NCBI GenBank assembly: GCA_947587085.1
Contig: CANPXX010000002.1
Coordinates: forward strand, 1 to 56,562
DNA from: an uncultured Clostridia bacterium
Lineage (GTDB): Bacteria > Bacillota > Clostridia > Christensenellales > Borkfalkiaceae
Reading direction: 5' to 3'
Length of the DNA stretch: 56,562 nt
Part shown: in pieces, positions 10,211-27,958 of the stretch
How the letters are laid out: each line of letters opens with the position of its first letter
Numbering within the stretch: the first letter of the stretch is position 1
Notes under the pieces: generated by a model
Database searches by the model: none
Told to the model about the DNA's origin: nothing
The model's input: the letters and a program-made list of their open reading frames with translations, nothing else
Position numbers and translations under genes: made by a program

Positions 10211-11119
10211 ATGTTGTATGAAGAATGGTTGAACGAATGGCTCGAACTGTACGTCAAGGTCTCGGTGAAAGATCGGACGTACGCGAAGTACCGCCGACAG
10301 GCGGAGAAGTACATCTTTCCCGCGCTCGGCGGGCTGGACGTGCGCGATCTGAGCGCGGGCACGCTGCAACGGTTTTCGGCGTCGCTCGTGGGGCGGGGAC
10401 TCGCGCCGAACAGCGCGAACTTCGTGATCTCGGTCTTGAAGGCGTCGCTGAGGAAGGGCACCCTGCTCGGGGTGGCGGACGGGCATTACGCCGACGCCAT
10501 CGTCCGTCCGAAGGTACGGGCGGGGCGGGTGACCTGTTTCAAACGCGCCGAGCAGAAGAAGATCGAGGCGTATGTCCTCTGCAAGGGTCCCTATCTTTTC
10601 GGGATCGTGCTCGCCCTCTATACGGGGCTGAGGATCGGGGAGCTCCTCGCGCTCACGTGGGACGACGTCGATTTGGGCAAGCGGCAGCTGACCGTCACAA
10701 AGACGTGCTACGACAGCTGGGAGAACGGGCGGTATAAGAAGGTGCTCGATACGCCCAAGACGCCGCGTTCGGAGCGCGTGATTCCGCTCCCGAAGCAGAT
10801 CGTCCGCTATCTGAGGGCGATCCGCAAGCAGACGATGGGACCCTTCGTGGTGTCGGCGCGGAGCGAATACGGGGCGCAGGTGCGCATCTACCAGCGTTCG
10901 TTCGAGCGGGTGCTCGGGAAGCTGAATATCGAGCGGAAGGGGTTCCATGCGCTTCGGCACACCTTCGCGACGCGTGCGCTCGAAGTGGGGATGGACGTAA
11001 AGACGCTTTCGGAGATCTTGGGGCATTCGAGCCCGACGGTGACGCTGACGCGGTACGCGCACTCGCTCATGGAGCACAAGATGGAGATGATGGAGAAGGT
11101 CGGGCGCCTCTTGCCTTGA
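10211..11119 (+). CDS. Tyrosine recombinase (probable DNA invertase of the adjacent promoter segment)
   Basis: 302 residues with a complete tyrosine-recombinase catalytic set: Arg141 (TGLRIGE), His246 and Arg249 (HALRH), His272 (LGHSS) and the Tyr282 nucleophile (TRYAH). The first ~100 residues are a helical core-binding domain (EEWLNEWLELYVKVSVKDRTYAKYR). No phage, plasmid or conjugation genes lie nearby and it is the only recombinase in the window. It sits 58 bp from one of two 24-bp inverted repeats flanking a promoter, so I infer it inverts that segment, as FimB/FimE, Mpi and RecV do elsewhere. An integrase left from an old element is the alternative. Confidence 0.88.
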   Translation: MLYEEWLNEWLELYVKVSVKDRTYAKYRRQAEKYIFPALGGLDVRDLSAGTLQRFSASLVGRGLAPNSANFVISVLKASLRKGTLLGVADGHYADAIVRPKVRAGRVTCFKRAEQKKIEAYVLCKGPYLFGIVLALYTGLRIGELLALTWDDVDLGKRQLTVTKTCYDSWENGRYKKVLDTPKTPRSERVIPLPKQIVRYLRAIRKQTMGPFVVSARSEYGAQVRIYQRSFERVLGKLNIERKGFHALRHTFATRALEVGMDVKTLSEILGHSSPTVTLTRYAHSLMEHKMEMMEKVGRLLP

Positions 11120-11146
11120 CCGCCGCAGAGGGTTTGGAAAAAAAGC

Positions 11147-11166
11147 GACCCCTCTTCGGAGGGGTC
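11147..11166 (-). terminator. Leftward-reading intrinsic terminator between recombinase and switch
   Basis: Stem GACCCCTC/GAGGGGTC (11147-11154, 11159-11166) with a TTCG loop. Read on the minus strand it is followed by GC and seven T, a good U-tract; read on the plus strand the tract is poor (CTTCTGC). It is therefore placed and oriented to stop transcripts started by the promoter at 11217-11244 before they run antisense into the recombinase. An outer 7-bp arm pair (11123-11129 and 11169-11175) may extend the structure. Confidence 0.8.
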
Positions 11167-11177
11167 CTTCTGCGGTA

Positions 11178-11201
11178 CATAGAATATGCTATTCTATGGA
11201 C
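11178..11201 (+). repeat. Left inverted repeat of the invertible segment
   Basis: A 24-bp sequence found exactly, in reverse complement, at 11730-11753. Each copy is itself nearly palindromic: 9-bp arms CATAGAATA and TATTCTATG around an asymmetric TGC centre, extended by GAC on one side. Two arms around a short asymmetric core is the layout expected of a tyrosine-recombinase crossover site, and the asymmetric core gives the two copies opposite direction, so recombination would invert rather than delete. Confidence 0.85.
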
Positions 11202-11216
11202 CTATACGCATATAAT

Positions 11217-11244
11217 TTTATACCACATCTTTGTGAAATGTCAA
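11217..11244 (-). promoter_or_regulatory. Invertible promoter, pointing left (predicted OFF state)
   Basis: On the minus strand: TTGACA (11244-11239), 16-nt spacer ending in TGG, TATAAA (11222-11217). This is a perfect -35 plus an extended -10 (TGN-TATAAA), the strongest promoter match in this region. Transcription should start near 11208, cross the left inverted repeat and meet the terminator at 11147-11166. Confidence 0.82.
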
Positions 11245-11256
11245 TGAAATTGCAGA

Positions 11257-11287
11257 AGATTTTTCGCCGAAAGCGAAAAATCTTTTT
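11257..11287 (+). terminator. Rightward-reading terminator inside the invertible segment
   Basis: Perfect 11-bp stem AGATTTTTCGC/GCGAAAAATCT (11257-11267, 11273-11283), 5-nt loop, then TTTTG. In this orientation it would stop read-through from the recombinase gene toward the surface operon. It sits behind the promoter, so it insulates the promoter in either orientation. Confidence 0.7.
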
Positions 11288-11425
11288 GTTAAATCGACCC
11301 CATTTTGGACTTAATGGGAAAAACCCTACACCATTTGCGGTTTTTCGGGCGGAAAATCCCCCCTTTTGCCCTCTCGGTCACCCCACCCCATTCCCGACTT
11401 GGGATTCTTGTTTCGGCAGCGATAA

Positions 11426-11469
11426 GGTAGAGATGTTTCGACTTCGGCTTCGCCTCCGCTCAACATGAC
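11426..11469 (+). repeat. Dispersed palindrome R1, right half-copy
   Basis: Matches the right arm of the R1 element (GGTAGAGATGTTTCGACTTC... through CTCAACATGAC) without the left arm. Other copies are at 11573, 28171, 29374, 51657 and 56493. Confidence 0.7.
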
Positions 11470-11572
11470 ATAAAGAAAGCGGCTTCGCCGCCCCGCATTC
11501 CCCTACTGTCATGCCGCCGCGCTTCCCCTACTGCCATGCCGCCCGACGCGTAGCGGAGCATTCTATAATAAT

Positions 11573-11669
11573 GTCATTTTGAGCGAAGTGAGCGGAGCGA
11601 ACGAAGTCGAAAAATCTCTACCGCATTCCTATAATAAGGTAGAGATGCCTCGACAAGCTCGGCATGACA
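11573..11669 (+). repeat. Dispersed palindrome R1, full copy
   Basis: Left arm from GTCATTTTGAGCG to AAAAATCTCTACC and right arm GGTAGAGATGCC... to GGCATGAC form an imperfect inverted repeat. This copy has a shortened right arm. It lies inside the invertible segment, so it would flip with it. Confidence 0.7.
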
Positions 11670-11729
11670 ATAAAGGAAAGTCGCTTCGGCTACAATAGGC
11701 GCTTCATACAGGGAAAACTTTCCATTTGA

Positions 11730-11753
11730 GTCCATAGAATAGCATATTCTATG
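11730..11753 (-). repeat. Right inverted repeat of the invertible segment
   Basis: Exact reverse complement, over 24 bp, of 11178-11201. On the plus strand the core reads GCA instead of TGC. It lies 143 bp before the start codon of the large surface protein. Confidence 0.85.
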
Positions 11754-11896
11754 GATTTTTGCGAAAGCCCGAGCGTCCGACGAAATGCGACCCCATATCT
11801 TAGAATCGACCCCATTCGGGGGGAAGGGAGCGGCGAGCGGTTCGGAGGGGCAGAGGGCACAATACAACATCTATGCAGAAGCAGGAGGAAACGGAA

Positions 11897-14800
11897 ATGA
11901 CGAAGATCAGAAAGAGGGTCATTCTGGCGTTGGGAATCGCGATGGCGATGACGTTGACCGCGGCGCTTGCGGTCCGCCCGATTCAAGAGCTGGCGGAAGC
12001 CGACCGGGGCACGAACTTTGTCATCGTCAACGAGATCTACGACGACGCGTCACATTCGTTCAACGCCATCAATTTGACGAACCTGTATACCAAAATCGCG
12101 GGTACGGGCACCTATGAAGCGGTTCGCGACGCGGGCACCAAGACGTCGCAGGACTTCCGTAACCTCAACGGCGGGTGGAACGTCTCGGTGTATTTCGGCG
12201 GGATAAAGTGGGACGCGACTTACCTCACCAAGGCGAACAACGGCGACGTCATCCTCGACCTGTGGCGCTCTTCGGACACGCTTACGGGGGGCGATGTCTC
12301 ACAATTTTCTTCATCCGAGAGTAATGACTACTCCACGAGTACCATTCGCTCATTTTTGATGGGGGACCGATACGCCCGCTTTACAAAGGCAAACGCGGCG
12401 AACAGCTTGACGCAGTTCATCGCCAAGCCCTCCCAAGTGGGGTATCAAGCATCTGAAACAAGCGACTACCAGAACGATGTCTTCTCCTCTGACGACTATC
12501 TTTGGCTTCCCTCTCTATCGGAAGCGGATAATAATACCATATGGAAGACGGACGCTTCTCTCAGAGCCGCAAATTCCGGTGTTGCGGGCGGGTATTATTG
12601 GCTCCGCACCGGCAATGCCCCATGGAATAAAGGTAGTAATGCGTACCGAGCCGACGTTTCGGGCGACGTCGCTTCTGTAAGTGTGACCGATTCCTACGGG
12701 GTGCGTCCTGCGCTTCACCTCAATCTTTCGATGGCGAAGTCGAATACGACGAGTGGCGCGCGCAACTCGGGCAAGTGGGTCACCGTCAACGAGCTCTATG
12801 ACGACGGCACGCACGCATTCAACGCGAGCAACCTCAACGACCTCTATAAGAGGCTTGTGGGCGCGGGTTCGTTCGACGCGGTGAGCTCGGCGGCGGACGG
12901 GATTCAGACGTCGTACAACTTCTACCTAAATAATGGCGGGGCGAACGTTTGGGTGTGGTTCGGCGGCATGAAGTGGGACGCGACTTACCTCACCAAGGCG
13001 AAGAACGGCGACGTCATCCTCGACCTGTGGCGCTCCGCGGACACGCTTACCAACGAGAAGGATACTTCGAAGTACTGCCCATGGGTGGACTGGGGCGATG
13101 AGGACGGCACCGTCCTGTACCCCGCGAACATGTATTCGACGAGCTATCTGCGCGTCGTCACGCTGAACGCGGGCGGGCAGTACTCCACGAGCAACAGCAC
13201 GCTCTCCGCCGTGCAAGCCCAAGACGCCTCCAACCAATACGCCCGCTTTACGATGATGGGCGGAACGGACAGCAGCGGGCGAGACAGCTTGGTGCCCTAT
13301 CTTGCGACGTCGTACGACGTCGGCTATCAGGAGAAAGAATGGAACGAAGCAATATACGGCTTCTACGGGAGCAATAACCTCTCGAACGACGCCTACGGAC
13401 AGGCAGAGGGGAACTACAGTCCCGACACCGACTATTGGAAGCGGGATAGCGAGCGCCCCGCCGCGGCGCAGTACGGCGCATGGGCGTGGGACTATCTCTT
13501 CATTCCCTCCGTCACCGAGGCGGGCATATCCGATGATAGGAACAGGAACGGTCTGTGGAATACCGACGCATCTATCCGGAGCGGGATGGGAGAGGGCGAT
13601 GTCTCGATGCCGTTCTCGCGCTCGGGCAGGAATAACATCCGCAACGTCTATCATTTTGACACCACCGGCACCTACAATAACTGCATCACCGGCTATGGTA
13701 GGGGCGTGCGGCCCGCGCTCCACCTCAACCTGTCGGCGATCGAGAGGAACATACAGGGGAGAAGCGGCGATTGGGTCACCGTCGGCGAGATCTATAACAA
13801 CGCATCGCAGACGTTCAGCGCCGCCAATTTGAAGAGCCTCTTCAAGACGCTCGTCGGCGCAGATACGTATGCCGAGCTCAAGGCGGCGGGCACCAAGACG
13901 TCGCAGGACTTCCGCGACCAAAACGGCGGGGCGAACGTCTCGGTGTGGTTCGGCGGCATGAAGTGGGACGCGACTTACCTCACGGCGGCAACGAACGGCG
14001 ACGTCATCCTCGACCTGTGGCGCTCGGCGGACATGCTTACGGGGGACGATGCCTCATCAAATTATTCAGGTACCATGAGCTCATTTTTGATGGGGGACCG
14101 ATACGCCCGATTTACAAGGACGGACGTGGCGAACAGCTTGACGCAGTTCATCGCCACGCCCTCCCAAGTGGGGTATCAAGCATCTGAAAGCACATACCCT
14201 GACGAGGCATTATCCTCTGACGACTATCTTTGGCTTCCTTCGCGATCGGAAACGATTACTGGGAACATCTGGCAGGCGGATGCTTTTCTCAGAGCCGCAA
14301 CATCCGGGGTTGGGGGCGGATATTGTTGGCTCCGTTCCACCCATTACAGTCTTTCTTACTATGCGTACGATCTCAACACTTCGGGCGATGTCGATTACGA
14401 TAATAAGAGCAATTACTTCGGGGTGCGTCCTGCGCTTCACCTCAATCTGACATCTGTCGCGCGAGCGATGGGCTCCTTAAACAAGGACGAATGGACGGGC
14501 AAACCCAAGACCTACGACCCCGACGGGATGACGTGGACGCTTCCGAAGAGCGAACTTGTGACCGTCAGCGCCGCCGAGGCGGACGGATGGACATGGAACG
14601 GGACCACCCTCACGGCGACCCGCGCAGGGTCCTGTCAGCTCACGATCGTGCCGACGTTCCTGTGGAGCGACGGCTCGTCCGATCCCGTCACCGTCACCTA
14701 CACGGTGGGAAAGGCAGACCTCGAGGCGAAGTACCGCGACCGCACCCATCCCGGCCTCTTGGAACAGCTGCGGGAGACGGTATTCCGATCGAGCGGCGAG

Positions 14801-17731
14801 CATGCGGTGGGGTTGGAGATGCCATCGGAGGGGGACCCGAGCTACCCCGTGTTCTATAAGGGGCGGGACGTCACGGTCGGGGGACTCCGATTCCAATACA
14901 TCGTGGAGACGCACGACGAGAACGCGCACACGGACGATCAGGACGAGCGGCTGAATGGATACAAAGAGACGGGGGAGTGGAAGGATTTCTCCGAGCTCGA
15001 TGCTTCCTTGCGGATGGCGAAGGACCCGAAGGGCTACTGCGTGTTCTTCAAGGCGACCGACCCGAACGGCAACTATAACGACCTGTACGGGTGGTACGCC
15101 GTGCACGTCGCGGGGGAGGAACTCACCATCACCCTCTCGAGCGGCGCCTCCCTCCTCGAGGGATGGGAGTACGGCGACAAGCAGCTCGATCGGGACGCCC
15201 TCCGCGATAAGCTCAAAGAGGCGGTCGTCAAGGTGGTGGACGCCGAAGAGACGGACGAGACGGAGCAGTTCAAGACCAACATCGCCAACTTCGTGTTTTA
15301 TCTGCGCACCGAGGACAACGGGGGCGGCATCCTCTACACCCTCGACGACGAGGGCATCCGCGAGGGCAGGGCGGGCGAGCTCGTCCGTCTCCCCGCGGGG
15401 ACGTACTACCTCTATGCCACCTTCGTGGAGGGCGGCTCGGTGAGCGGGAGCGTCGTATTCGCGTGGGCGAACGGCAGACCGCACTTCGAAGTCTCCGCGC
15501 GCCGTATCACCCTTCCGCTCACCTTCGTGCCCAAGGCGTACGGCGACGACCCCGAGGGCTGGGTCATTCCCGGCACGCCCGCCCATGCGGACGGGAGCGG
15601 GGATTGGTTCGCCCCCTCGGAGGACGACCTCGAGAACCTCAAGCTCTCCTACTCGCTCCGCGCGGCGGACGAATCGATGGCGGGAGCGCTCACCGACCGC
15701 ACGCCCGCGGGAGACTACACCGTCGTTCCCGCGTGCGGCAATGCAAACTATACCGTCACCTTCGAGCCCGAGGGCGGGTCGTTCGCCTACACCGTTGAGA
15801 AAGCGTCCGTCCTCAAGCCCGAAGCGGACCCGACGGAGTACACCTATAACGGCAGGGTGCAGACGTATGCCGTCCGCGCGGACGCCCTCTATGAGGTGCT
15901 CGGCGACGAGCAGACGGACGCCAACGAGGCGGGCTACACCGTCACCGTCCGCCTCCGCGACGGGGACAACTATAAGTGGAAGGATGGCGACAGCGGCGAC
16001 CTCTTCTTTACCTTCATCATCCATAGAATGGAAATTTCGGCGGATTGGGGCGGCGGGAGCTACGTCTACACGGGTTCGGCGCTTCCCTATCCCACGGCGG
16101 CGGCGGACGGCGCAGACGGGGCGCTCCTCTCCCTCGTCATCGCCCCGTCCTTCGAGGGCGCGTTCCAAAACGCGGGGAGCTATACCTTCCTCGCCTCGCT
16201 CGACCCTTCGGACGCGGCGTCGAAGAACTATCTTCTCACGGGCGGCACCGAGAGGAGCTACACCGTTGAGAAGGCGCCCCTCACCGTGACGGCGAACGAC
16301 AACGCCATCGTCTATGGCGAGGCGCCCGTCCATGGCGGCGTGGCGTACAGCGGCTTTGTCGGCGAGGACGACGAGCATTCGCTCGGCGGGGCGCTCGCGT
16401 TCACATACGGCTACGAGCGGTATCAGAACGTCGGCGACTACCTCATCACGCCGGGCGGGCTCACCTCGGGCAACTATGAGATAGATTTCGTTGCGGGCAC
16501 CCTCACCGTGTCCCCCTTGGAGATCTCTGCGGATTGGGGCGGCGAGAACTACGTCTATACGGGTTCGGCGCTCGCCTATCCCACGGCGACGGCGGGCGGC
16601 GTGCACGGAGACGTGTTCACCCTCCTCATCGCCCCGTCCTTCGAGGGCGCGTTCCAAAACGCGGGGAGCTATACCTTCCGCGCCTCGCTCGACCCTTCGG
16701 ACGTGGCGGCGAAGAATTACCTTCTCACGGGCGGCACGGAGAGGAGCTACACCATCGAAAAGGCGGTGTACGATCTCTCGGGCGTCCGCTTCGAGGGCGG
16801 CGAATGGGACTACGACGGACAGGCGCACAGCCTCTTCATAACGGGCGATCTGCCCGACGGCGTGAGCGTGACCTACGAGGGGAACGCGCAGAAGGATACG
16901 GGCGAATACACCGTGACGGCGGTCTTTGCGGGCGATGCCGACAACTTCGAGAGCATTCCCTCCATGACGGCGCTTCTCACCATCTATCCCGTCAGCCACG
17001 ACTTAAGCGGCATTTCGTTCGGGGATGTGACGGTGTCTTACGACGGGGAGGCGCACGAGATCGTCATCCGCGGCATTCTGCCCCGCAGTGTGAGCGTCTC
17101 CTATGAGGGGAACGGGCAGACGGAGGCGGGCGTGTATACCGTCACCGCCGTGTTCCGCGACCTCGTGGAGGAGTTCGCGCGGCAACAGGCAACGCTCACC
17201 ATTTTGAGGACGCATGCTTCGGCGACGGAGGAGGGCGGCGAGGAGCCGACCGTGGTCGTGGACGTCGAGGGCGGCTTCGATCCCACCTGCGACTTCGCGG
17301 TGGCGGAGGCGCAGGACGTCGAACGCACCCTCCTCGCATGGGGGAAGGATACCGTCTCCAAGATCTTCACCGTCAAACTCATCAAGGACGGCGAGGAGCT
17401 TCCCTTCGAGGGCAGGGCTCTCGTACGCCTCCTCATCCCCGAGGAGTTCCGCGACAGAGAGTTCTCGCTCACGGCGCTCGTGAAGGACGAGGTCTCGTCG
17501 GTGGCGAAGAGCACGGCGCAGGAGGAGGGCACGCACGCGGTCCATGTGGACTACACGCGGGACGGCGACTACATCGTGTTCGAAGCGGACGGGCTCTCCT
17601 CGTACATCCTCACGAGCGAGTACGCCTCGACCATCCCCATCGTGTTCGTGTGCACGAGCGTGCTCTTTGCAGACGTGGCGGTCCTCGCCGTTCTGCTCGC
17701 CGTCGTCAGACGGAACAAGAAAAAGGCATAA
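11897..17731 (+). CDS. Giant exported protein: three DUF6273-type domains, MBG-type repeats, C-terminal membrane anchor
   Basis: 1944 residues. The ATG at 11897 is chosen because AGGAGG lies 8 nt upstream; an ATG at 11873 has no such site. A signal peptide (about 1-35) is followed by three homologous domains (about 39-285, 291-615, 623-855), each with FGG.KWDATYL, NGDVILDLWRS, YARFT and a closing GVRPALHLNL, typical of DUF6273. A linker of about 400 residues precedes MBG/Ig-like modules (about 1300-1780) with ISADWGG..YVYTGSAL and YDLSG..F.....YDG.AH. It ends in a hydrophobic segment and RRNKKKA, so it should be held in the membrane; no LPXTG is seen. First gene after the switch; function probably surface adhesion or ligand binding. 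Confidence 0.85.
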   Translation: MTKIRKRVILALGIAMAMTLTAALAVRPIQELAEADRGTNFVIVNEIYDDASHSFNAINLTNLYTKIAGTGTYEAVRDAGTKTSQDFRNLNGGWNVSVYFGGIKWDATYLTKANNGDVILDLWRSSDTLTGGDVSQFSSSESNDYSTSTIRSFLMGDRYARFTKANAANSLTQFIAKPSQVGYQASETSDYQNDVFSSDDYLWLPSLSEADNNTIWKTDASLRAANSGVAGGYYWLRTGNAPWNKGSNAYRADVSGDVASVSVTDSYGVRPALHLNLSMAKSNTTSGARNSGKWVTVNELYDDGTHAFNASNLNDLYKRLVGAGSFDAVSSAADGIQTSYNFYLNNGGANVWVWFGGMKWDATYLTKAKNGDVILDLWRSADTLTNEKDTSKYCPWVDWGDEDGTVLYPANMYSTSYLRVVTLNAGGQYSTSNSTLSAVQAQDASNQYARFTMMGGTDSSGRDSLVPYLATSYDVGYQEKEWNEAIYGFYGSNNLSNDAYGQAEGNYSPDTDYWKRDSERPAAAQYGAWAWDYLFIPSVTEAGISDDRNRNGLWNTDASIRSGMGEGDVSMPFSRSGRNNIRNVYHFDTTGTYNNCITGYGRGVRPALHLNLSAIERNIQGRSGDWVTVGEIYNNASQTFSAANLKSLFKTLVGADTYAELKAAGTKTSQDFRDQNGGANVSVWFGGMKWDATYLTAATNGDVILDLWRSADMLTGDDASSNYSGTMSSFLMGDRYARFTRTDVANSLTQFIATPSQVGYQASESTYPDEALSSDDYLWLPSRSETITGNIWQADAFLRAATSGVGGGYCWLRSTHYSLSYYAYDLNTSGDVDYDNKSNYFGVRPALHLNLTSVARAMGSLNKDEWTGKPKTYDPDGMTWTLPKSELVTVSAAEADGWTWNGTTLTATRAGSCQLTIVPTFLWSDGSSDPVTVTYTVGKADLEAKYRDRTHPGLLEQLRETVFRSSGEHAVGLEMPSEGDPSYPVFYKGRDVTVGGLRFQYIVETHDENAHTDDQDERLNGYKETGEWKDFSELDASLRMAKDPKGYCVFFKATDPNGNYNDLYGWYAVHVAGEELTITLSSGASLLEGWEYGDKQLDRDALRDKLKEAVVKVVDAEETDETEQFKTNIANFVFYLRTEDNGGGILYTLDDEGIREGRAGELVRLPAGTYYLYATFVEGGSVSGSVVFAWANGRPHFEVSARRITLPLTFVPKAYGDDPEGWVIPGTPAHADGSGDWFAPSEDDLENLKLSYSLRAADESMAGALTDRTPAGDYTVVPACGNANYTVTFEPEGGSFAYTVEKASVLKPEADPTEYTYNGRVQTYAVRADALYEVLGDEQTDANEAGYTVTVRLRDGDNYKWKDGDSGDLFFTFIIHRMEISADWGGGSYVYTGSALPYPTAAADGADGALLSLVIAPSFEGAFQNAGSYTFLASLDPSDAASKNYLLTGGTERSYTVEKAPLTVTANDNAIVYGEAPVHGGVAYSGFVGEDDEHSLGGALAFTYGYERYQNVGDYLITPGGLTSGNYEIDFVAGTLTVSPLEISADWGGENYVYTGSALAYPTATAGGVHGDVFTLLIAPSFEGAFQNAGSYTFRASLDPSDVAAKNYLLTGGTERSYTIEKAVYDLSGVRFEGGEWDYDGQAHSLFITGDLPDGVSVTYEGNAQKDTGEYTVTAVFAGDADNFESIPSMTALLTIYPVSHDLSGISFGDVTVSYDGEAHEIVIRGILPRSVSVSYEGNGQTEAGVYTVTAVFRDLVEEFARQQATLTILRTHASATEEGGEEPTVVVDVEGGFDPTCDFAVAEAQDVERTLLAWGKDTVSKIFTVKLIKDGEELPFEGRALVRLLIPEEFRDREFSLTALVKDEVSSVAKSTAQEEGTHAVHVDYTRDGDYIVFEADGLSSYILTSEYASTIPIVFVCTSVLFADVAVLAVLLAVVRRNKKKA
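12010..14460 (+). repeat. Three direct repeats encoding the DUF6273-type domains
   Basis: The three domains share long near-identical DNA, clearest around 12188-12270, 12955-13035 and 13948-14030 (the GGGACGCGACTTACCTCACC region). This makes loss or gain of a domain by recombination possible. Confidence 0.75.
16029..16758 (+). repeat. Duplicated MBG-type module within the surface gene
   Basis: Copies at about 16029-16270 and 16518-16758 are almost identical in DNA, including a stretch of about 50 bp at 16139 and 16629 (CTTCGAGGGCGCGTTCC...). The close match points to a recent duplication. Confidence 0.75.
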
Positions 17732-17752
17732 CCCATTGGGAGGATATCGGAA

Positions 17753-19243
17753 ATGAACGGATTTTTCGGCAACGTGGACGCATTCCTGCGCGAGACCTTC
17801 TTCCTCGATAAGACGGAGGGCATCGTGCTCCTCGCGGCGACCCTCGCCGCCCTCGTATTCACCATCGTGGCGGTGGCGCTCGCGATCGCGGTGGGAGTCT
17901 CCTTCAAACGCAAAAGACCTCTTGGACGCGTGTGCACGGGCATCGCCGTCGATCCCGCCGCCGTCAAGCGGGAATTCGCCGTCGGCGAGCCGTTCGGGTG
18001 CGACGGCTTGGTGGTCAGCGCCTGTTACAACGCCGCCCCCGAGCGGGCGCCCATCCCCGAATTCGCCGTCATCGGCGCCGAGGAGCTCGAAAAGCTGGAA
18101 CAGGAGGGCCGCGCGAAGGGTTGCTATGTCGTCAAGCCCGACCTCAAAGAGCCGGGGAAGGACGTCGTCGCCGTAAAGTATCGCGGCAGAACGGCATATT
18201 ACACGGTCTCCGTCGCGGGGGGCGCGTCCGCCGCAGCGGCGCCCGCCTCCCTCCCGAGCAGGGTGGTGCGCTACAACAGGAGCTTCACCTCCAAATTCAT
18301 CCAGTCGGACGACAAGGACAAGGAGCGGTACGCTTGGCTCAAAAACGAACTCCTCTCGTATAGCGGCGTGCGGGCGCGCATGAGCTGGAAGCGCGAGACC
18401 TTCCGCATCGGGCGCAATACGGTCGCCCTCTTCGGCTACCGCGGCACCACGCTGTGCATCTATCTCCCCCTCGCCCCCGCCGACTATGCCAATACCAAAT
18501 ATCAGGTGGAGGACGTCTCCGCCAACGCCACCTTTGCCGATACGCCCTGCATGTACCGTCTAAGGAGCGACAAGCGCTACCGCTATGCGGCGGAACTCTT
18601 CGCCGAAGTGATGGCGCGGCTGGGCATCGAACGCATCGAGCGCGAGCCCGAGTCCTACTATCTCCCCTATGAGACGACGGAGGCGCTGATGGGCAGAGGG
18701 CTCATCAAGTGCGAAATTCAGGGCACCGCCGACGGGACGGTCGTCTTGACGGACGCCCCCGTGCAAGCCGAAGCCGCCCCCGCCGAAGCGGTTCCCGAAG
18801 AAGCCGCGCCCGAAGAAGCTGTTTCCGAAGTTCCCGCGGAAGCGGCGCCCGAAGAAGCCGCGCCCGAAGAAGCCGCGCCCGAAGAAGCTGTTTCCGAAGT
18901 TCCCGCGGAAGCGGCGCCCGAAGTTCCCGAGGAGGATCCCGAGGTCGAGGACCTCACCGCCGAGGAGCTCGACGACGTGAGGCAGTACGAGGAGGCGGAG
19001 AGCGAGACGGACGGCATCGAGGTCATCGGCGTCATGTTCCGCCGCCGCGGGAGAAAGGTGTATTGGTTCGACCCCGACGGCAAGACGTGGGAAAAGGGCG
19101 AGATCGCGCTCTACCGCTCGCCCGATAATCCCCCGCAGGAGGTGATCGTGGTGGACCACACATGGCGTCTCCCCGAACATCTGGTGCTCCCCTTGAAACC
19201 GCTCAGCAAGGCGACGCATCACGCCGCGCACAAGGGCGAATGA
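17753..19243 (+). CDS. Membrane-anchored protein with IQSDD-type domain and Glu/Ala/Pro repeats
   Basis: 496 residues. One N-terminal transmembrane segment (about 24-50) is followed by a basic stretch (FKRKRP), a beta-rich region (about 60-165), then a domain (about 175-310) with RSFTSKFIQSDDKDKERYAWLKN, a conserved tryptophan (MSWKRETFR), YANTKYQVEDVS and PCMYRLRSDKRYRYA. The same domain occurs in the protein at 26690-27958. Next come tandem APEEA-type repeats (about 345-400) and a distinct C-terminal domain (about 420-490). It starts 21 nt after the surface gene with GGGAGG as ribosome site, so the two are co-transcribed. Function unknown. Confidence 0.75.
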   Translation: MNGFFGNVDAFLRETFFLDKTEGIVLLAATLAALVFTIVAVALAIAVGVSFKRKRPLGRVCTGIAVDPAAVKREFAVGEPFGCDGLVVSACYNAAPERAPIPEFAVIGAEELEKLEQEGRAKGCYVVKPDLKEPGKDVVAVKYRGRTAYYTVSVAGGASAAAAPASLPSRVVRYNRSFTSKFIQSDDKDKERYAWLKNELLSYSGVRARMSWKRETFRIGRNTVALFGYRGTTLCIYLPLAPADYANTKYQVEDVSANATFADTPCMYRLRSDKRYRYAAELFAEVMARLGIERIEREPESYYLPYETTEALMGRGLIKCEIQGTADGTVVLTDAPVQAEAAPAEAVPEEAAPEEAVSEVPAEAAPEEAAPEEAAPEEAVSEVPAEAAPEVPEEDPEVEDLTAEELDDVRQYEEAESETDGIEVIGVMFRRRGRKVYWFDPDGKTWEKGEIALYRSPDNPPQEVIVVDHTWRLPEHLVLPLKPLSKATHHAAHKGE

Positions 19244-19301
19244 CGGCAGAGAAAGTTGTATTCCAAGATGCGTATGAAGATCATACGAAGGAGATAATAC
19301 A

Positions 19302-21872
19302 ATGTTGAAAAGACTCACGAAACTTTCGAGCTTGACGCTCGGCGTCGTCATGACGATCGCAACGATGACGATCGGCTTCACGGGGTGCGGCAAGAAGGAT
19401 TCGGACGAGACGTTGGAGGAGGTGCAGGCGTCCTCGCTCATCTACTCCTCCGCGGGCGTGTATTCCGTGACGCTCCAAAAGGGCGAAAAGGATTACGGCG
19501 GCGTCTCGGCGGACGACGTGGAAGTGCTGTATTCCGTCCCCTCGGACGAGGCGGAGGACGGGTACCTCACGAAGGAAGCGGATGTGCTCGGCACGTCGGT
19601 GGGCTCGGACGGCGCCCTCAGCGTCACCTTCGAGGACCCCGACGCTTCCACAAACATGACGGATACATACGCCGTGTCCGTCGAAAAATTGCACGTCGGC
19701 GCGGTCATCGACGTCGAATTCGGCGTCTATACCGTGCGGTGCGATACCGACCACGTTTATTCCACCGATAAAGAGGTGAAACTGACGCTCACGCTCGACG
19801 AGGGCGAATATGCGGACGTCACGAAGGACGACATCTCGCTCGCGGGTTCGTTCGAGAACATGCAGGTGACGAGCGTTTCCGCGTCGGGAAAGAACCTCAC
19901 CATGCAGCTCGCGGGCGACATCGTGATGCACGAGAGCTCGGGCGCCTATCTGGACGGGGTCGTCCGTCTCTCCGCCGACGCGGTCAAGGACAACATCTCG
20001 CAGATAGAGGACGTCACCATCCCCGTGGAGGGGCGGGCGGCGTATTTCGACGCGGGCAGGATGCGTTGGGCGAACGGAGCCGTCAACGCGCCCCTCGTGC
20101 TCATGGACGTGACGGATACGGATACGGTGACGGCGAATGACGTCGTGTTTGCCGGGGACAGCGGCGTGACCGTGAAGAACGTGGTCCCCGTGAGCGACGA
20201 CGAGGTGTTCGTCACGTTGGACGTGCAGGGCGCGACGGACAGAAATTCCGCCGCCGCAGTCCTTAATGGCGCCGAGGTCACCGTCGGCGATACCGCTCTC
20301 ACCGCCGACTTCGGCTCCGCCGCGTTCTATCCCGTGTTCGATTTCGTCGAACAGGCGGGCGAGAATCTTCGCATCACCGTCGTGCTCTATGCGAAAAACG
20401 GCACATTTGCGGACGGGCTCGCCGCTTCGCAGGTCTCCTTCGGCGGCGCGTTCGAGGGGGGAACGGTCTCCTCTTTGAAGCGCACGGGCGATCGTACGGC
20501 GGAACTCTCGTTCGAGGTCCCCGCAAACGGACAGAGCATCGATACGATGGATATGGACGGCGAGATCGTCCTCGCACAGGGGGCGCTCATCAATGCGTGG
20601 GGCGACGTGAAAGACGGCGAGACCTCCTATCTCAGAAATTATTCGCCCGAAAGCCTCGGGCGCGGCACGAATGCACAGCAGGTCGTCGGCACCATTCAGG
20701 AGATCGCCGAATTTACGGGCGAGTTCATCGACCTCATCAACGGAGAGAAATCGGTGTGCGAGGCGATCAGCTGGATCTGCGGCTGCTTCGGAAACTTTGC
20801 GTCCGACGACGATTATGCGATGAAATTCCAGAAGGAGATCAATCGGAAGCTGGACTCCATTTTGGATCTCGTCCAAGCCAATAACGAACTTCTTGCGGTG
20901 GCGGTCAAGGAGATCTACAGCAACAAATTGCAGAACTTCGACGTCGCGGTCAACAAGTTGGAGAACGCATGCAACACGCTCGACAGCTATCTTGCCGACG
21001 CCTGCACATCGACGAAGCTCTCCGCGAACGATCTGAAAAGCAGATCGGACCCCGACGCCGTGAAGATCGCGGGCGACCTCGTGAACGCCATGAACAAGAA
21101 GAAAAATTATGTGGACACGATCAAGACGCTCAAATCCGACTTCAACACCGTCGTCGCAAATTTGAAGCTGTCGGGGACGGACAATCCCTTTGCCGTTTTC
21201 GATAAGCTGTGCACGATGACATATAATTTCGATACGCAGTCCAAGGATTCGAGGACGAACTATCGCTCCCGCACCGAATACATCATGGAGAGAGCGCTCT
21301 GCCATCTTCTGATGTACTATGTGTACGGCGACAACGACCTCACCGCGCGCGAGACCTATTACACGGCATTCCGTGAGCTGGACAAGGCAAAAACGAGATG
21401 CCCTGTCGATCAAGGGAAAGCGGGCGCCGCGTATTGCTATGCGATCAACCGCTATTTCGTCTTGGATACCAGCAGGGCTGTGCGCGACTGGCCGTACAAA
21501 GGTTGGGATTGGGGCGACGAGCTGTTGGCATGCGCGGGGAAGAAGAGCGATTTCGATTTCACCGCGACCCAGCGGGACGAATATGTCAGACGGATGCAGG
21601 GAAGGACTTTGAGCCAAGACTTCAACCTTGCGGGCTTTGGCACCCAGTACAATACGGGCATGGCGTTTTGGGTCGAACGAAAGAAGGGCAAGTCCGATTG
21701 GGTAGACGATTTTGCGTCGGCGTTCAGCTCGAGTTATAAGAAGCATTTGAAGGAGTATTGGGCGTACTATATCCCTTGGAATTCGGGGAAGATGGAACAC
21801 AAGAAATTCCTCGGCAACATCAATGAGGATTTCAAGCTCTACTTTTACCTCGGACAGTGGGTCGAGGCTTGA
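19302..21872 (+). CDS. Large lipoprotein with Ig-like N-terminal part and helical C-terminal part
   Basis: 856 residues. Lipobox GFTGC (Cys29) marks a lipoprotein held on the outer face of the membrane. Residues about 40-450 are beta-rich with three or four Ig-like or cohesin-like units (TVTANDVVF..., ADGLAASQVSFGGAF). Residues about 465-856 are mainly helical (IQEIAEFTGEFIDLINGEKSVCEAISWICGC, then amphipathic helices and an aromatic-rich end). I do not recognise the C-terminal part. GAAGGAG precedes the ATG, and a short hairpin (19271-19287) lies just before it. Third gene of the predicted switch-controlled operon. Confidence 0.75.
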   Translation: MLKRLTKLSSLTLGVVMTIATMTIGFTGCGKKDSDETLEEVQASSLIYSSAGVYSVTLQKGEKDYGGVSADDVEVLYSVPSDEAEDGYLTKEADVLGTSVGSDGALSVTFEDPDASTNMTDTYAVSVEKLHVGAVIDVEFGVYTVRCDTDHVYSTDKEVKLTLTLDEGEYADVTKDDISLAGSFENMQVTSVSASGKNLTMQLAGDIVMHESSGAYLDGVVRLSADAVKDNISQIEDVTIPVEGRAAYFDAGRMRWANGAVNAPLVLMDVTDTDTVTANDVVFAGDSGVTVKNVVPVSDDEVFVTLDVQGATDRNSAAAVLNGAEVTVGDTALTADFGSAAFYPVFDFVEQAGENLRITVVLYAKNGTFADGLAASQVSFGGAFEGGTVSSLKRTGDRTAELSFEVPANGQSIDTMDMDGEIVLAQGALINAWGDVKDGETSYLRNYSPESLGRGTNAQQVVGTIQEIAEFTGEFIDLINGEKSVCEAISWICGCFGNFASDDDYAMKFQKEINRKLDSILDLVQANNELLAVAVKEIYSNKLQNFDVAVNKLENACNTLDSYLADACTSTKLSANDLKSRSDPDAVKIAGDLVNAMNKKKNYVDTIKTLKSDFNTVVANLKLSGTDNPFAVFDKLCTMTYNFDTQSKDSRTNYRSRTEYIMERALCHLLMYYVYGDNDLTARETYYTAFRELDKAKTRCPVDQGKAGAAYCYAINRYFVLDTSRAVRDWPYKGWDWGDELLACAGKKSDFDFTATQRDEYVRRMQGRTLSQDFNLAGFGTQYNTGMAFWVERKKGKSDWVDDFASAFSSSYKKHLKEYWAYYIPWNSGKMEHKKFLGNINEDFKLYFYLGQWVEA

Positions 21873-21892
21873 CGGGAATCGCGGGTGACGCC

Positions 21893-23857
21893 ATGCGAAG
21901 GCACAGCGGAAAGACCGCCGCGCGGGTCTTGTCGGCGGTCGCGGCGGTCTGCCTGTCCCTCTCCCTCTTCGGCTGCGTTGAGACTCCGTCGGCGGGAGAG
22001 GGAAGGGCGGCGGTCTACATCTACATGTGCGGCTCCGACCTCGAGACGAAGCAGAGCGCCGCGACGAGGAACCTCGCCGAGATTTTGGGCGCGGACATCG
22101 ATGAAAGCGTCTCCGTCGTGATCGAGACGGGCGGCGCCCAAAAGTGGCGCGGCTACGACATTTCCTCCGACTTCATCACACGATACGAGGCGAAGGACGG
22201 CGTGCTCCTGCAAAGGCAGCTGCTCGCCAATGCCTCCATGGGCGACGGGCAGACGCTTTCCGATTTCATCGGCTGGTGCACCAAAGAGTATCCCGCCGAA
22301 AAGACCGCGCTCATTCTGTGGGACCACGGCGGCGGCGCTTCGGGAGAGGTCTGCTATGACGAGAATTACGCCATGGACGCGCTTACGCCCGAGGAACTCC
22401 GCGGCGCGCTGGAAGCCAACGGGGCGCATTTCGACCTGATCGGGTTGGACGCCTGTCTCATGGCGACCGACGAAATGGCGGCGCTGTTGAAAGATCACGC
22501 CGATTTCCTGCTCGCATCGGAGGAGATCGAGCCCTCGGGCGGCTGGGATTACGCCGCGCTCGCCGAAGGATTTTCGTCGGGCGGTACGGTGGAGGAGACG
22601 TGCAGGGCGGTCGCAGACGCGTACATGCGCAAGTGCGACGGCTCGGGCGGCGGCGATATGGCGACGCTCTCCCTCTTCGATCTGAAAGAGTACGGCGAAT
22701 TTTCCGCCGCGTTCGATGCGTTTGCGCAAAATTTGCGGCACGTCTCCGAAGAGCGGTTCGGGAATTTCAATATCGTGCGCGCCACGGAGAAGGCATGCAA
22801 ATTCGGCGCGGCGGCGCGTGACGAAGGCGCAAGCAATCTCATCGACCTGTACGGCTTCGCGGCTTCGCTCGCCCGAAGCGACGCCTCCGCGTCCGCCCTC
22901 ATGGCGGCGATCGAAAAGCTCGTCCCGTATCGGGTGAGCGGCGCGGGCAGGGAGGGCGTGGGCGGCGTGTCGCTCTATTACCCCTTGCGGTACGACCCGA
23001 ACGATCTGAACGCCTATCTGCGGTCGTGTTCGAGCGAACCGTACAAAACCTATCTTGCGGAGATCTACGGCGGCGACGTCAGCTGTTCCATCGGGTTTTC
23101 GGACGCGGGGAGCATCGGCGAGGACGGAAGTTTTCACATCGCCTTGACGCAGGAGAGCAGGAAATACTTGAAGTCGGTGGAATTTTCGCTGTTGGGCTTT
23201 TCAAGCGCCGACTCCGCGGCGCCCTATGAGATGGTCCAGCTCGGCATCGATAACGATCTTAAATCGGATTGGGACGGGCTCACGTTCAGAAGCAATTTCC
23301 GCGGGGTATGGCTCGCGCTCGACGGCGCGTACCTCAACTATTCGGTCATCGAAAACAACGATGAATACATCATATTTTCGGCGCCCGTCAAGGCGAACGG
23401 CGTGAAGAGCAATCTGCGCTTCATGTTCGTGTGGGACGACAGCTATTTCAACGGCGGATATTATAAGATCATAGGGCTGTGGAACGGGCTCGACGAAAAC
23501 AACCTCGCCGATAAACAGATAACGCCCCTGAAAGAGGGGGACGAGATCACCGTACTGCGCAAGGCGGTGGACCCCGCCTCGGACAGGACGATCGAAGAAG
23601 CCGCGCTGAGCGAAGGCGAAACGGTGGTGATCGGCGGGGACGGCGGCAAGGTCGCGGAGCTCCCGCTGGGAGGGGAGTACTACCGCTATGTGTTTATCGT
23701 GACCGATATCTTCGGGAACAGATTTTATTCGGATACCGCGGGTCTTGAGATGAAATACACCTATGACGAGCTCCTCGCCGACCCCCTCCCCGACGGCGAA
23801 TACGCGGCGGAGGTCATGGGCATCGAGTGGGACAGCTATTGGGGCGCCGTGGGCTGA
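21893..23857 (+). CDS. Clostripain-family (C11) cysteine peptidase lipoprotein
   Basis: 654 residues. The signal peptide ends in the lipobox LFGC (Cys28). The peptidase domain begins VYIYMCGSDLET and carries the C11 catalytic pair: His145 in LWDHGGG and Cys188 in GLDACLMAT, with the usual ASEEIEPSGGWDY block that shapes the basic specificity pocket. After about residue 400 comes a beta-rich C-terminal domain of unknown role. The start at 21893 is chosen because it gives a normal signal peptide; a GTG 36 nt upstream would not. The enzyme probably cuts extracellular proteins after Arg or Lys, possibly its operon partners. Confidence 0.88.
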   Translation: MRRHSGKTAARVLSAVAAVCLSLSLFGCVETPSAGEGRAAVYIYMCGSDLETKQSAATRNLAEILGADIDESVSVVIETGGAQKWRGYDISSDFITRYEAKDGVLLQRQLLANASMGDGQTLSDFIGWCTKEYPAEKTALILWDHGGGASGEVCYDENYAMDALTPEELRGALEANGAHFDLIGLDACLMATDEMAALLKDHADFLLASEEIEPSGGWDYAALAEGFSSGGTVEETCRAVADAYMRKCDGSGGGDMATLSLFDLKEYGEFSAAFDAFAQNLRHVSEERFGNFNIVRATEKACKFGAAARDEGASNLIDLYGFAASLARSDASASALMAAIEKLVPYRVSGAGREGVGGVSLYYPLRYDPNDLNAYLRSCSSEPYKTYLAEIYGGDVSCSIGFSDAGSIGEDGSFHIALTQESRKYLKSVEFSLLGFSSADSAAPYEMVQLGIDNDLKSDWDGLTFRSNFRGVWLALDGAYLNYSVIENNDEYIIFSAPVKANGVKSNLRFMFVWDDSYFNGGYYKIIGLWNGLDENNLADKQITPLKEGDEITVLRKAVDPASDRTIEEAALSEGETVVIGGDGGKVAELPLGGEYYRYVFIVTDIFGNRFYSDTAGLEMKYTYDELLADPLPDGEYAAEVMGIEWDSYWGAVG

Positions 23858-23888
23858 GAGGAAGGAATCGGACAAGGAGAGTGTCATC

Positions 23889-24788
23889 ATGAAAAGAATC
23901 GTCTTGGGATTGCTCGCCGCATGGATGGCGGTATGCTGTCTTGCGGGGTGCGCGGAACGCGATAAGACCGAGGTCCCGCAGCACACGCACACCTATGAGG
24001 AGAAATGGACGTACGACGAAGAGGAGCATTGGCATAGGGCGACGTGCGGTCACCTCGACGCCTATGGCGACAGGGCGGCGCATACCTTCTCGGACGGGGT
24101 ATGCACCGTGTGCGGGTACAGGATCGTCGGCATGACCGTCGGCGAATTTGCCGCAGACCATGCGGAAAAGGCGAGAGACTTCGCGCGCAGCCGCATGCGG
24201 GCGGGCTCGACGGATCCCGCCGACCCTGAGGCGATCGGCTCCGAATTCGTGTGGTTCGTCACCGATGAAAACAACAAGGCGACGGAGCTTCGGTATCTGT
24301 ACACGGTCGCGCGGGAGGCGGCGGAGGGGTCGCAGACCTGCGGCGTGGCGCTCTTCATCGGCTCCTGGGAGAACGCGATCGACCTCAAAGATATAGCGGA
24401 GGGGGAGATCTATCTCGGGAGCGGAACGGCGAATTCGTCGCTGACCGTGTTCTCCTTCGACAAAAGCTCTCTCGCCGCGCATAGCGCGCTCGCCGACGCC
24501 GTCGCTTCCGCATATGCCTCCCTTTACGGGGAGGAGCTCGCGCAAGGCACAGCCGCTCCCCTTTGCAGGTTGTTCCGCTCGGACTATCGGGAGGGGCAGT
24601 ACACCCTCGAAACGTTCGACGTCACGGAGGGCGGATATATCCGCTACACCCTGACGGCCGCCTGCGCGGAGGGCTCCACCGACGGGGAGCTCGCCGCGGC
24701 GTTGCAGGCGCAGGAGAACATCTTGGACCATAAGGCAAGATCGTGGGATTCCAAGGGGGCGCTCGTCTATCGGAACATTGCGGACTGA
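23889..24788 (+). CDS. Small lipoprotein with HTH/CxxCG motif
   Basis: 299 residues. Signal peptide with lipobox LAGC (Cys21). Residues about 30-80 are rich in His, Cys and aromatic residues (HTHTYEEKW, HWHRATCGH, AHTFSDGVCTVCGY), a short metal-binding-like module common in clostridial surface proteins and seen again in the lipoprotein at 52256. The remaining ~215 residues form one alpha/beta domain without recognised motifs. AAGGAGAG precedes the ATG. Last gene before a terminator at 24836-24866, so it closes the putative surface operon. Confidence 0.75.
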   Translation: MKRIVLGLLAAWMAVCCLAGCAERDKTEVPQHTHTYEEKWTYDEEEHWHRATCGHLDAYGDRAAHTFSDGVCTVCGYRIVGMTVGEFAADHAEKARDFARSRMRAGSTDPADPEAIGSEFVWFVTDENNKATELRYLYTVAREAAEGSQTCGVALFIGSWENAIDLKDIAEGEIYLGSGTANSSLTVFSFDKSSLAAHSALADAVASAYASLYGEELAQGTAAPLCRLFRSDYREGQYTLETFDVTEGGYIRYTLTAACAEGSTDGELAAALQAQENILDHKARSWDSKGALVYRNIAD

Positions 24789-24835
24789 CGGCGGAAATGA
24801 CGGGTACGCACAAAGGCACATCCGCAAATTACGGG

Positions 24836-24866
24836 CGGGAGCGATCGGAACGCTCCCGTCCTTTTT
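24836..24866 (+). terminator. Terminator of the surface-protein operon
   Basis: Stem CGGGAGCG/CGCTCCCG (24836-24843, 24851-24858), 7-nt loop, then TCCTTTTTG. It ends the run of genes that starts at 11897. Confidence 0.8.
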
Positions 24867-26526: not shown

Positions 26527-26558
26527 GCGCGCTCCCCTTCCGCGGGGAGCGCGCATTT
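26527..26558 (+). terminator. Intrinsic terminator after yhbY
   Basis: Eleven-base-pair stem GCGCGCTCCCC/GGGGAGCGCGC (26527-26537, 26544-26554), 6-nt loop, then ATTTTG. The same GCTCCCCGCGG-type core recurs in the hairpin at 38217. Confidence 0.8.
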
Positions 26559-26603
26559 TGCACAACAGGGTGCAAATTTCGCAGTCAAAATTTCCGTCTG
26601 ATA

Positions 26604-26632
26604 TTGACAAACGGCGCGGGGCGCGATATAAT
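26604..26632 (+). promoter_or_regulatory. Promoter of the IQSDD/L15-like membrane protein
   Basis: TTGACA (26604-26609), 17-nt spacer, TATAAT (26627-26632): consensus sigma-A promoter, about 50 nt of leader before the ATG at 26690. Confidence 0.85.
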
Positions 26633-26689
26633 ACCCGTATATCCGAAACGCGGCTTCCCGCGGTCGGCAAAGATGTAGAGAGGTTTGCC

Positions 26690-27958
26690 ATGCGTACTTT
26701 CAATTCGCTTTCCATGTTGCTCGCCTCCTCCTTGCAGGACTATCTGTGGCTCGTCATTTTGCTGTGCGTGCTCATCGCGGTCGCGCTCGCCGTGCTCATC
26801 GTGCTCCTCGTGTGGCACAAGAGGAAGGCGGAGACCGCGCCCGAAGAGCCCGCGTCCGAGCCCAAAAAAGAACCCGAACCCAAACAAGAGCTCGAGCTAA
26901 AAAAGGAACCCGAGCCCAAAACAAAACCCGAGCCTGTAAAAGAGCCCGAGCCGAAGAGAGAGGCGAAGCCGTCGCCCGCTCCCCGCGGCGGGGAGAGTGA
27001 GCTCGCCGCGGCGCTCGCCGTTGCCGTCCCCGCGGAGGACGCCGTGGCGGCGCCTGCTGTCGTCGTGCGGCGAAGATTGGTATATGTCCGCTACGACCGC
27101 AGTTTCCTCGCCCGTCTCATCCAATCGGACGACGCGGTGAAGGCGTATTATTCCGAACTCAAAAACAAATTGTTCTCCTACGGCGTGAAGAGCAGGCTGA
27201 GCTGGAAGGCGGAGAGCTTCCGCTACCGCGGCGAACTGCTCGTCCGCATGAAGATACGGGGCAAGCGGCTGTGCGTGTACTATGCCTTGGATCCCGCCCG
27301 CTTCGCCGAGACCAAGTACAAGGTGGAGGACGGGTCCGATGTGCGCTCCAACGAGGGCGTGCCCTGTCTGTACCGCATCCTCAACGACCGCCGCTTGCGC
27401 TACGCGAAGGACCTCATCGACTTGTTGATGGCGGAGCGCGGCGTTCCGTCCGTTTCGGGCGGGGAAGAGGACTATGCGGCGCGCTATCCCTATGAGGAGA
27501 TCGGACCGCTTCTCTTGCGCAAGTTGGCGAAGCGCATCGAATACACCGAGGAGGAGGCGGCGGGGGAGAACACCGTCGCGAACGCGGAGGACAAGTTCGT
27601 CCGCGAGGAATACAGAATCGAAGGCGGCGCGGTGCAGGCGGAACAGGCGCACACGCTGATGCGCGACGAGGTGGCTGAAGAGCTCGTGGAGGAGGGCGTC
27701 CTCTATGCGGACAAGACCAAGACGGGCATCATCAACGTGGACACGCTCGGCGAATACTTCGAGAGCGGCGAGGAGGTCACGTTGGAGAAGATCAAGGAGC
27801 GCATGCCCTTCTTCAATAGGAAGGTCACCTATTTGAAGGTGCTGGCGCGGGGCAGACTTGCGGAGCCCCTCATCGTCACCGCGGACGACTTCTCGCCCGA
27901 CGCCGTGAAGATGATCGTGCTCACGGGCGGACGGGTCATCCGCACGAAGCGCAGATAG
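26690..27958 (+). CDS. Membrane-anchored protein with IQSDD domain and uL15-like C-terminus
   Basis: 422 residues. One N-terminal transmembrane segment (about 18-42), a linker of EPEPK-type repeats (about 50-100), then the IQSDD domain (about 125-245: DRSFLARLIQSDD, KNKLFSYGVKSRLSWKAESFRYR, FAETKYKVEDGS, PCLYRILNDRRLRYAKDL) shared with the protein at 17753. The last ~75 residues (KTGIINVDTLGEYFESGEEVT..., KVLARGRLAEPLIVTADDFS, GGRVIRTKRR) resemble the C-terminal half of ribosomal protein uL15. It is not a ribosomal protein: it is membrane-anchored and single-copy outside ribosomal operons. Strong own promoter. Function unknown. Confidence 0.78.
   Translation: MRTFNSLSMLLASSLQDYLWLVILLCVLIAVALAVLIVLLVWHKRKAETAPEEPASEPKKEPEPKQELELKKEPEPKTKPEPVKEPEPKREAKPSPAPRGGESELAAALAVAVPAEDAVAAPAVVVRRRLVYVRYDRSFLARLIQSDDAVKAYYSELKNKLFSYGVKSRLSWKAESFRYRGELLVRMKIRGKRLCVYYALDPARFAETKYKVEDGSDVRSNEGVPCLYRILNDRRLRYAKDLIDLLMAERGVPSVSGGEEDYAARYPYEEIGPLLLRKLAKRIEYTEEEAAGENTVANAEDKFVREEYRIEGGAVQAEQAHTLMRDEVAEELVEEGVLYADKTKTGIINVDTLGEYFESGEEVTLEKIKERMPFFNRKVTYLKVLARGRLAEPLIVTADDFSPDAVKMIVLTGGRVIRTKRR

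Follow-up and report, generated by a model that had tools for sequence, protein, structure and literature searches.

The fimS element of Escherichia coli carries a promoter between short inverted repeats; it is flipped by the adjacent tyrosine recombinases FimB and FimE and drives a surface operon. The available parts of one source describe RecV of Clostridioides difficile as a tyrosine recombinase acting on several sites genome-wide, Cdi7 as a site with a recombinase nearby, and Mpi of Bacteroides fragilis as a serine-type master recombinase with at least thirteen regions (PMC5903667). For the hCom2 gut community, the accessible portion of another report links Clostridia inverton group 139 to tyrosine invertase group 35 from reads (PMC11892184).

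The locus considered here lies in a window of 56,562 nucleotides, the whole stretch of DNA that was analysed, which is the entire contig C2 of an incomplete assembly (1.38 Mb, 80 contigs) from an uncultured Clostridia bacterium, genome G000 in our set. An earlier note on this window had proposed a promoter-inversion switch controlling a surface operon. We read the locus, from its sequence and that of its relatives, as a predicted promoter-inversion switch with an ON and an OFF state. The recombinase likely flips a 528-bp segment, and the predicted promoter carried by that segment would drive a likely surface operon only when flipped. We give this reading a probability of about 0.8.

The recombinase, its sites and the predicted operon

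The gene at 10211-11119 (plus strand) encodes a tyrosine recombinase of 302 residues, the predicted flipper of the segment, with domain matches to Phage_integrase (E 8.9e-24) and Phage_int_SAM_3 (E 4.1e-10). Residues R141, K183, H246, R249, H272 and Y282, which we take to be catalytic, all fall inside the stretch aligning with the solved integrase 6en0, presumably that of Tn1549. The full set reported in the earlier note (R141, H246, R249, H272, Y282) is present, with K183 in addition. The protein scores far below the NCBIfam cut-offs for both XerC and XerD.

The left recombination site (11178-11201, plus strand) begins 58 bp past the recombinase stop, and the right site (11730-11753, minus strand) is its exact reverse complement, complementary at 24 of 24 bp (100%) with 528 nt between them; both were delimited by repeat search, dyad pattern and comparison with other loci. 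The earlier description of each copy as 9-bp arms around a 3-bp core holds, since both copies read CATAGAATA-NNN-TATTCTATG. Within them we place a putative 7-bp crossover core, TATGCTA at 11185-11191 on the left and TAGCATA at 11740-11746 on the right. With up to 3 mismatches allowed, the pattern CATAGAATA-NNN-TATTCTATG matches twice in the window, at these two sites, and 0 times in 100 shuffles. This repeat scores 24, and no shuffle (of 1520) and no control window (of 548) reached 20. The 24-bp site has no exact match in the viral collection, and Rfam gave no match within 10900-12100 up to E 0.1.

A search of the window's own genome for the same repeats away from a recombinase returned a single other dyad match (3 mismatches), at C23:19655, about 335 bp from a paralogous recombinase 53% identical to the window's. 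This second cassette (L035) has its recombinase at C23:20010-20903 on the minus strand, a core of TATCCTA and an extra left-hand site, and it lies ahead of a likely secreted protein of 1773 residues.

Just inward of the left copy, within the segment, is a predicted promoter (11217-11244, minus strand), recognized by promoter scan and in the sequence as TTGACA-16-TATAAA with an extended -10, the TG standing one base ahead of the -10; the promoter scan calls the same place TTGACA-18-TAAAAT, 11/12. The consensus promoter that had been noted there exists; its strand, however, is the minus one, and in the assembly it faces away from the surface gene. Because it reads left, to the recombinase, the assembly shows the predicted OFF state. 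After a flip, its -10 is computed to lie at 11709-11714. Between the recombinase gene and the left site is a leftward terminator-like hairpin with a T tail (11147-11166, minus strand), identified by hairpin scan, RNA fold and comparison with other loci; the RNA fold of 11125-11216, minus strand, has a z of -4.77 and is better than 200 of 200 shuffles. A scan of 11754-17800 for further sigma-70-like promoters found none.

In the mechanism we propose, the recombinase would bind the dyad arms and exchange strands across the 7-bp core, whose asymmetry (TATGCTA / TAGCATA) would favour inversion. In the OFF state, transcription would run leftward from the promoter into the hairpin at 11166-11147, which would stop it ahead of the recombinase gene. 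In the ON state it would begin immediately ahead of the right site, about 175 nt upstream of 11897, and continue through 11897-24788.

The predicted switched gene (11897-17731, plus strand) follows a Shine-Dalgarno sequence, AGGAGG, at 11883-11888, 8 nt ahead of its start codon. It encodes a large, likely secreted protein with a signal-like N-terminus, and Pfam finds in it two DUF6273 matches and one MBG_2 domain, in agreement with the DUF6273/MBG-type target that the earlier note had named. Four further genes on the plus strand come after it: a 496-aa protein whose N-terminus, by eye, has a hydrophobic stretch and which has no Pfam match (17753-19243); an 856-aa likely lipoprotein, by eye, also without a Pfam match (19302-21872); a clostripain-family (Peptidase_C11, E 4e-43) protein, likely a lipoprotein by eye (21893-23857); and a 299-aa protein, likely a lipoprotein by eye (23889-24788). 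An 11-pair terminator-like hairpin with a T tail (24833-24861, plus strand) is the likely end of the operon. Inside the five-gene run, one scan gave plus-strand terminator candidates of merely 5-6 pairs and another gave none; the five co-directional genes (11897-24788) probably form one operon. Promoter-like matches at 21199 and 23436 could allow the later genes to be expressed without the switch. By eye, the proteins encoded at 17753-19243 and 26558-27958 resemble each other around YNRSF...LIQSDD and are possible paralogues; Pfam gave no telling match for either.

Since literature on diversity-generating retroelements and their phages names DUF6273, in the portions available to us, a template of the window's DUF6273 repeats was sought in its own genome. 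The search returned nothing beyond the query and a sister unit in the same gene. The two DUF6273 units differ without A bias, the sole reverse transcriptase of the incomplete assembly sits on another contig, and a diversity-generating retroelement is not supported. The genome's only reverse-transcriptase match is a 534-aa open frame (L151, G000:C29:2919-4520, minus strand).

The spacer between the sites (11202-11729) is predicted to invert on the evidence of flipped counterparts in other loci. At 528 bp it has about four times the length of a typical spacer (106-178 bp), the excess being due to dispersed repeats inside it (11422-11698), for which the own genome gives 138 matching pieces when self matches are counted. 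These repeats belong to an abundant intergenic dispersed family found at many places in the genome. Within them, the promoter scan finds a weaker rightward promoter-like match (11607-11635, plus strand) that could make the OFF state leaky. Given the enlarged spacer, the repeats and this match, the window copy may be slow, leaky or retired. At the extreme, the site pair would be the relic of an ancestral switch, enlarged by the dispersed repeats and frozen OFF, leaving the operon untranscribed or dependent on promoters other than that of the switch, for instance the one in the repeats. Those same three features would fit a relic, but the recombinase reading frame, its catalytic residues, both arms (24/24) and the core are all intact, and we regard a frozen locus as unlikely compared with a promoter-inversion switch.

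Recombinase copies and flipped segments in the genus

The recombinase occurs at E 1e-40 or better in 49 of the 103 genomes of the genus, its own included, and at 1e-20 in 25 genomes, from 7 of 25 genera, among 61 relatives. In the named genome collection, one scan picked up three recombinase relatives with 50-67% identity. We analysed 83 copies, excluding six distant or partial loci (L066-L071) and leaving out the partial hits at G103:C92, G073:C30 and G092:C31. Seven copies had less than 250 bp downstream, leaving 76 for the repeat count. Of these 76 copies, the window's among them, 36 have an inverted repeat scoring at least 14 within 700 bp downstream; random control windows from those loci gave 4 in 548, and shuffles 1 in 1520. 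At a score of at least 12, the counts were 47/76, 23/548 and 17/1520; 29 of the 76 copies had no downstream repeat reaching that score. Shuffles for the repeat, spacer-interior, core/promoter, arms-only and terminator tests preserve base composition only.

Removing L050, L095, L113, L127 and L136 from the 47 by our own judgement and adding L039 by hand gave 43 segments for comparison; the site pair of L040 was set by hand. Setting aside L039, at a contig end, and L120, which is mis-centred, left 41 counted pairs. Arm spacing in the analysed pairs is 106-178 bp, the exceptions being L051 (228) and the window (528). Among the 43 segments, the better promoter points towards the recombinase in 31, towards the downstream gene in 6 (L065, L104, L109, L119, L120, L130) and is unclear in 6; a promoter of threshold score, on either strand, occurred in 129 of 860 shuffled segments. 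That most point in the predicted OFF direction may reflect populations in which OFF prevails. Terminators reading leftward were found between the recombinase and the left site at 16 of 41 loci and in 4 of 410 shuffles; for rightward terminators the counts are 5/41 and 2/410.

Spacer interiors of the 43 loci were compared in both directions, the best score in 500 shuffled trials being 16. The segment of L130 (genome G122), when reversed, matches those of L123, L058, L132, L133 and L057 with scores of 52-90, against 11-18 unreversed, and its flanks are collinear with those of L123, L058, L132 and L133. For L130 and L123 the left flank gives 571/683, the right flank 455/705 and the flipped segment 135/164. 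L065 and L097 share same-direction flanks (267/367 and 422/610) around a flipped segment (52/63); the right flank of L065 is clearly alike in L097 only, not in L094, L093 or L092. L107 and L099 have flanks of 319/433 and 529/688 and a flipped segment of 126/170, with an unflipped score of 24 that is attainable by the arms alone.

The comparison with related assemblies that had been suggested for this locus has in this way yielded three groups of loci, all in species of the window's genus and none in the window's own, in which the segment is inverted and both flanks are collinear. Over evolutionary time, then, the site-bounded segment inverts within this genus. The interior of the window's own spacer has no counterpart among the other 42 segments compared. 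Exact sites, promoter motif and between-species flips, all of them sequence evidence, lend support to the promoter-inversion switch of the earlier note. At that level the design of the window locus is confirmed as a promoter-inversion switch, predicted OFF in the assembly, with strong comparative support; inversion in the window's organism, the role of the recombinase and the effect on expression are what we infer from that design.

Contig ends were also counted around the 71 full-length copies. An end lies within 600 bp downstream in 8 and within 600 bp upstream in 4, and four of the eight copies broken downstream (L039, L047, L055, L121) end inside site-like sequence, by eye. As a sign of mixed orientation, such breaks are suggestive only.

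Core, arms and cassettes

When pairs are centred on the dyad, the central 7 bp are identical within the pair in 41 of 41, with 30 different cores, and the arms within pairs differ at a mean of 4.63 of 18 positions. Re-pairing sites across loci gave an identical core in 28 of 1640 combinations, and in 19 of 459 where the arms were as alike as within loci. Part of this core identity comes from the method itself, because the pairs were found via exact 7-base seeds. Since the pairs had been found through repeats, the search was redone with an arms-only profile as a control, for the 27 copies of the window's clade, each locus being left out of its profile. At a threshold of 10 (shuffled best score 8.7 at 95%, 19.3 at most), the best two sites were inverted and identical in core in 13 copies, direct and identical in 0 and different in 4; another 4 copies had one site and 6 had none. 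For three of the four different cases (L036, L037, L042), an inverted-identical pair occurs among further sites.

The exchange region of lambda integrase is likewise 7 bp. Identity within pairs and variation between loci are as expected if the 7-bp core is the crossover region, which it probably is. Site arms track recombinase similarity (Mantel r 0.71, 0 of 2000 permutations, 37 recombinases), which partly reflects shared descent; for the core the correlation is weaker (r 0.25, 1 of 2000 permutations, 37 recombinases). Genomes with two analysed cassettes have differing cores in 10 of 10 cases, and since random core pairs would mostly differ too, this count alone is no proof of selection for independence.

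These results bear on two further explanations. Were the recombinase a mobile-element integrase acting on the repeats as attachment sites, its best PHROG match, an integrase family (E 5.5e-62), and its distant resemblance to phage integrases (at most 34% identity among the ten best matches listed) would be accounted for; but the sites are inverted rather than direct, the spacer holds no element genes, the arms-only scan of 27 copies gave 0 direct-identical pairs and flipped segments keep both flanks, so that we consider a mobile element very improbable. That the dyads are mere protein-binding operators or RNA hairpins by an unrelated recombinase gene is the least probable of all, for each site is indeed near-palindromic and folds into a hairpin as RNA, but an asymmetric 7-bp core identical within pairs and not between loci, and flipped segments in relatives, are unexpected of operators.

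Several relatives depart from the usual promoter-inversion layout. L042 has two tandem invertons, at +50 to +377 after one recombinase, with the cores TTATCCA and TCGTGTA, an arrangement with potentially four states. In L038 the inverted pair is upstream of the recombinase gene (360-510 bp), not downstream. L036 (+158) and L037 (+167) have a third dyad inside the segment, with good arms and a different centre.

Proteins from 20 downstream open reading frames, the long ones cut at 900 aa, were scanned for domains. The scan found a glycosyltransferase (L036), N-methylation prepilin motifs (L092, L094, L097), ABC transporter ATPases (L099, L104), an alpha-amylase with a lipobox (L130), an EcoRI-type methyltransferase (L059), a type III methyltransferase (L111), a TIR protein (L053), List_Bact repeats (L061, L109), GH3 (L060), Sel1 repeats (L117), a repeat match (L051) and a borderline repeat match (L119); it gave no domain match for the downstream proteins of L035, L091, L105 and L129. 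These downstream genes are presumably under switch control, and for the TIR protein and the two methyltransferases (L053, L059, L111) the invertons are possibly a form of phase-variable defence.

We tentatively propose, at somewhat less than even odds, a genus-wide portable and self-contained cassette, one recombinase with one promoter inverton of about 130 bp, that has been set repeatedly ahead of operons of various content (surface proteins, prepilin-like proteins, lipoproteins, ABC transporters, DNA methyltransferases, a TIR protein). Every copy would have a private 7-bp core, so that switches in one cell would flip independently without recombining together. With the recombinase found so widely in the genus, a guess from one genome becomes a comparative family. 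The sites of relatives, with a core kept within pairs and free between loci, indicate without experiment the likeliest place of strand exchange, and the recombinase-site pairs are a ready set for testing independence in the laboratory. The prediction is that in these bacteria random switching affects surface proteins, pilus-like proteins, and genes for DNA modification or defence.

Comparison with described systems

Searched by titles and abstract openings, with few subscription papers included, the literature gave no description of this switch or of the 7-bp core rule. Inverton group 139, as the accessible portion of its source presents it, is, like the window's predicted switch, a Clostridia inverton with a tyrosine recombinase near (within 5 kb in that study), but it was detected by reads (PMC11892184), whereas the window's switch is predicted from assembled sequence.

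Among the precedents named in the earlier note is RecV; as far as its source was available, RecV and Cdi7 share with the window a tyrosine recombinase and segments inverted, or here predicted to invert, in front of genes. A RecV-type master system has one recombinase and several scattered sites, whereas the window's genome has one further dyad match (at most 3 mismatches), by a paralogue. Mpi fits in part. From the same available parts, it inverts promoter or regulatory segments and switches surface loci as predicted here, but it is serine-type (PMC5903667) and the window enzyme has a tyrosine recombinase domain, which makes Mpi an analogue of the switch logic and not of the enzyme.

By layout the window locus resembles fimS, with a predicted promoter within short inverted repeats, an adjacent tyrosine recombinase and a likely surface operon, but FimB and FimE are two recombinases where the window has one, and the window's sites are long dyads with a putative 7-bp core. 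With an adjacent enzyme whose catalytic residues are intact, inverted repeats matching at 24/24 bp around a short intergenic segment, and in that segment a predicted minus-strand promoter able to face its target once inverted, the window locus belongs in design to a known kind, the promoter inverton with a local tyrosine recombinase.
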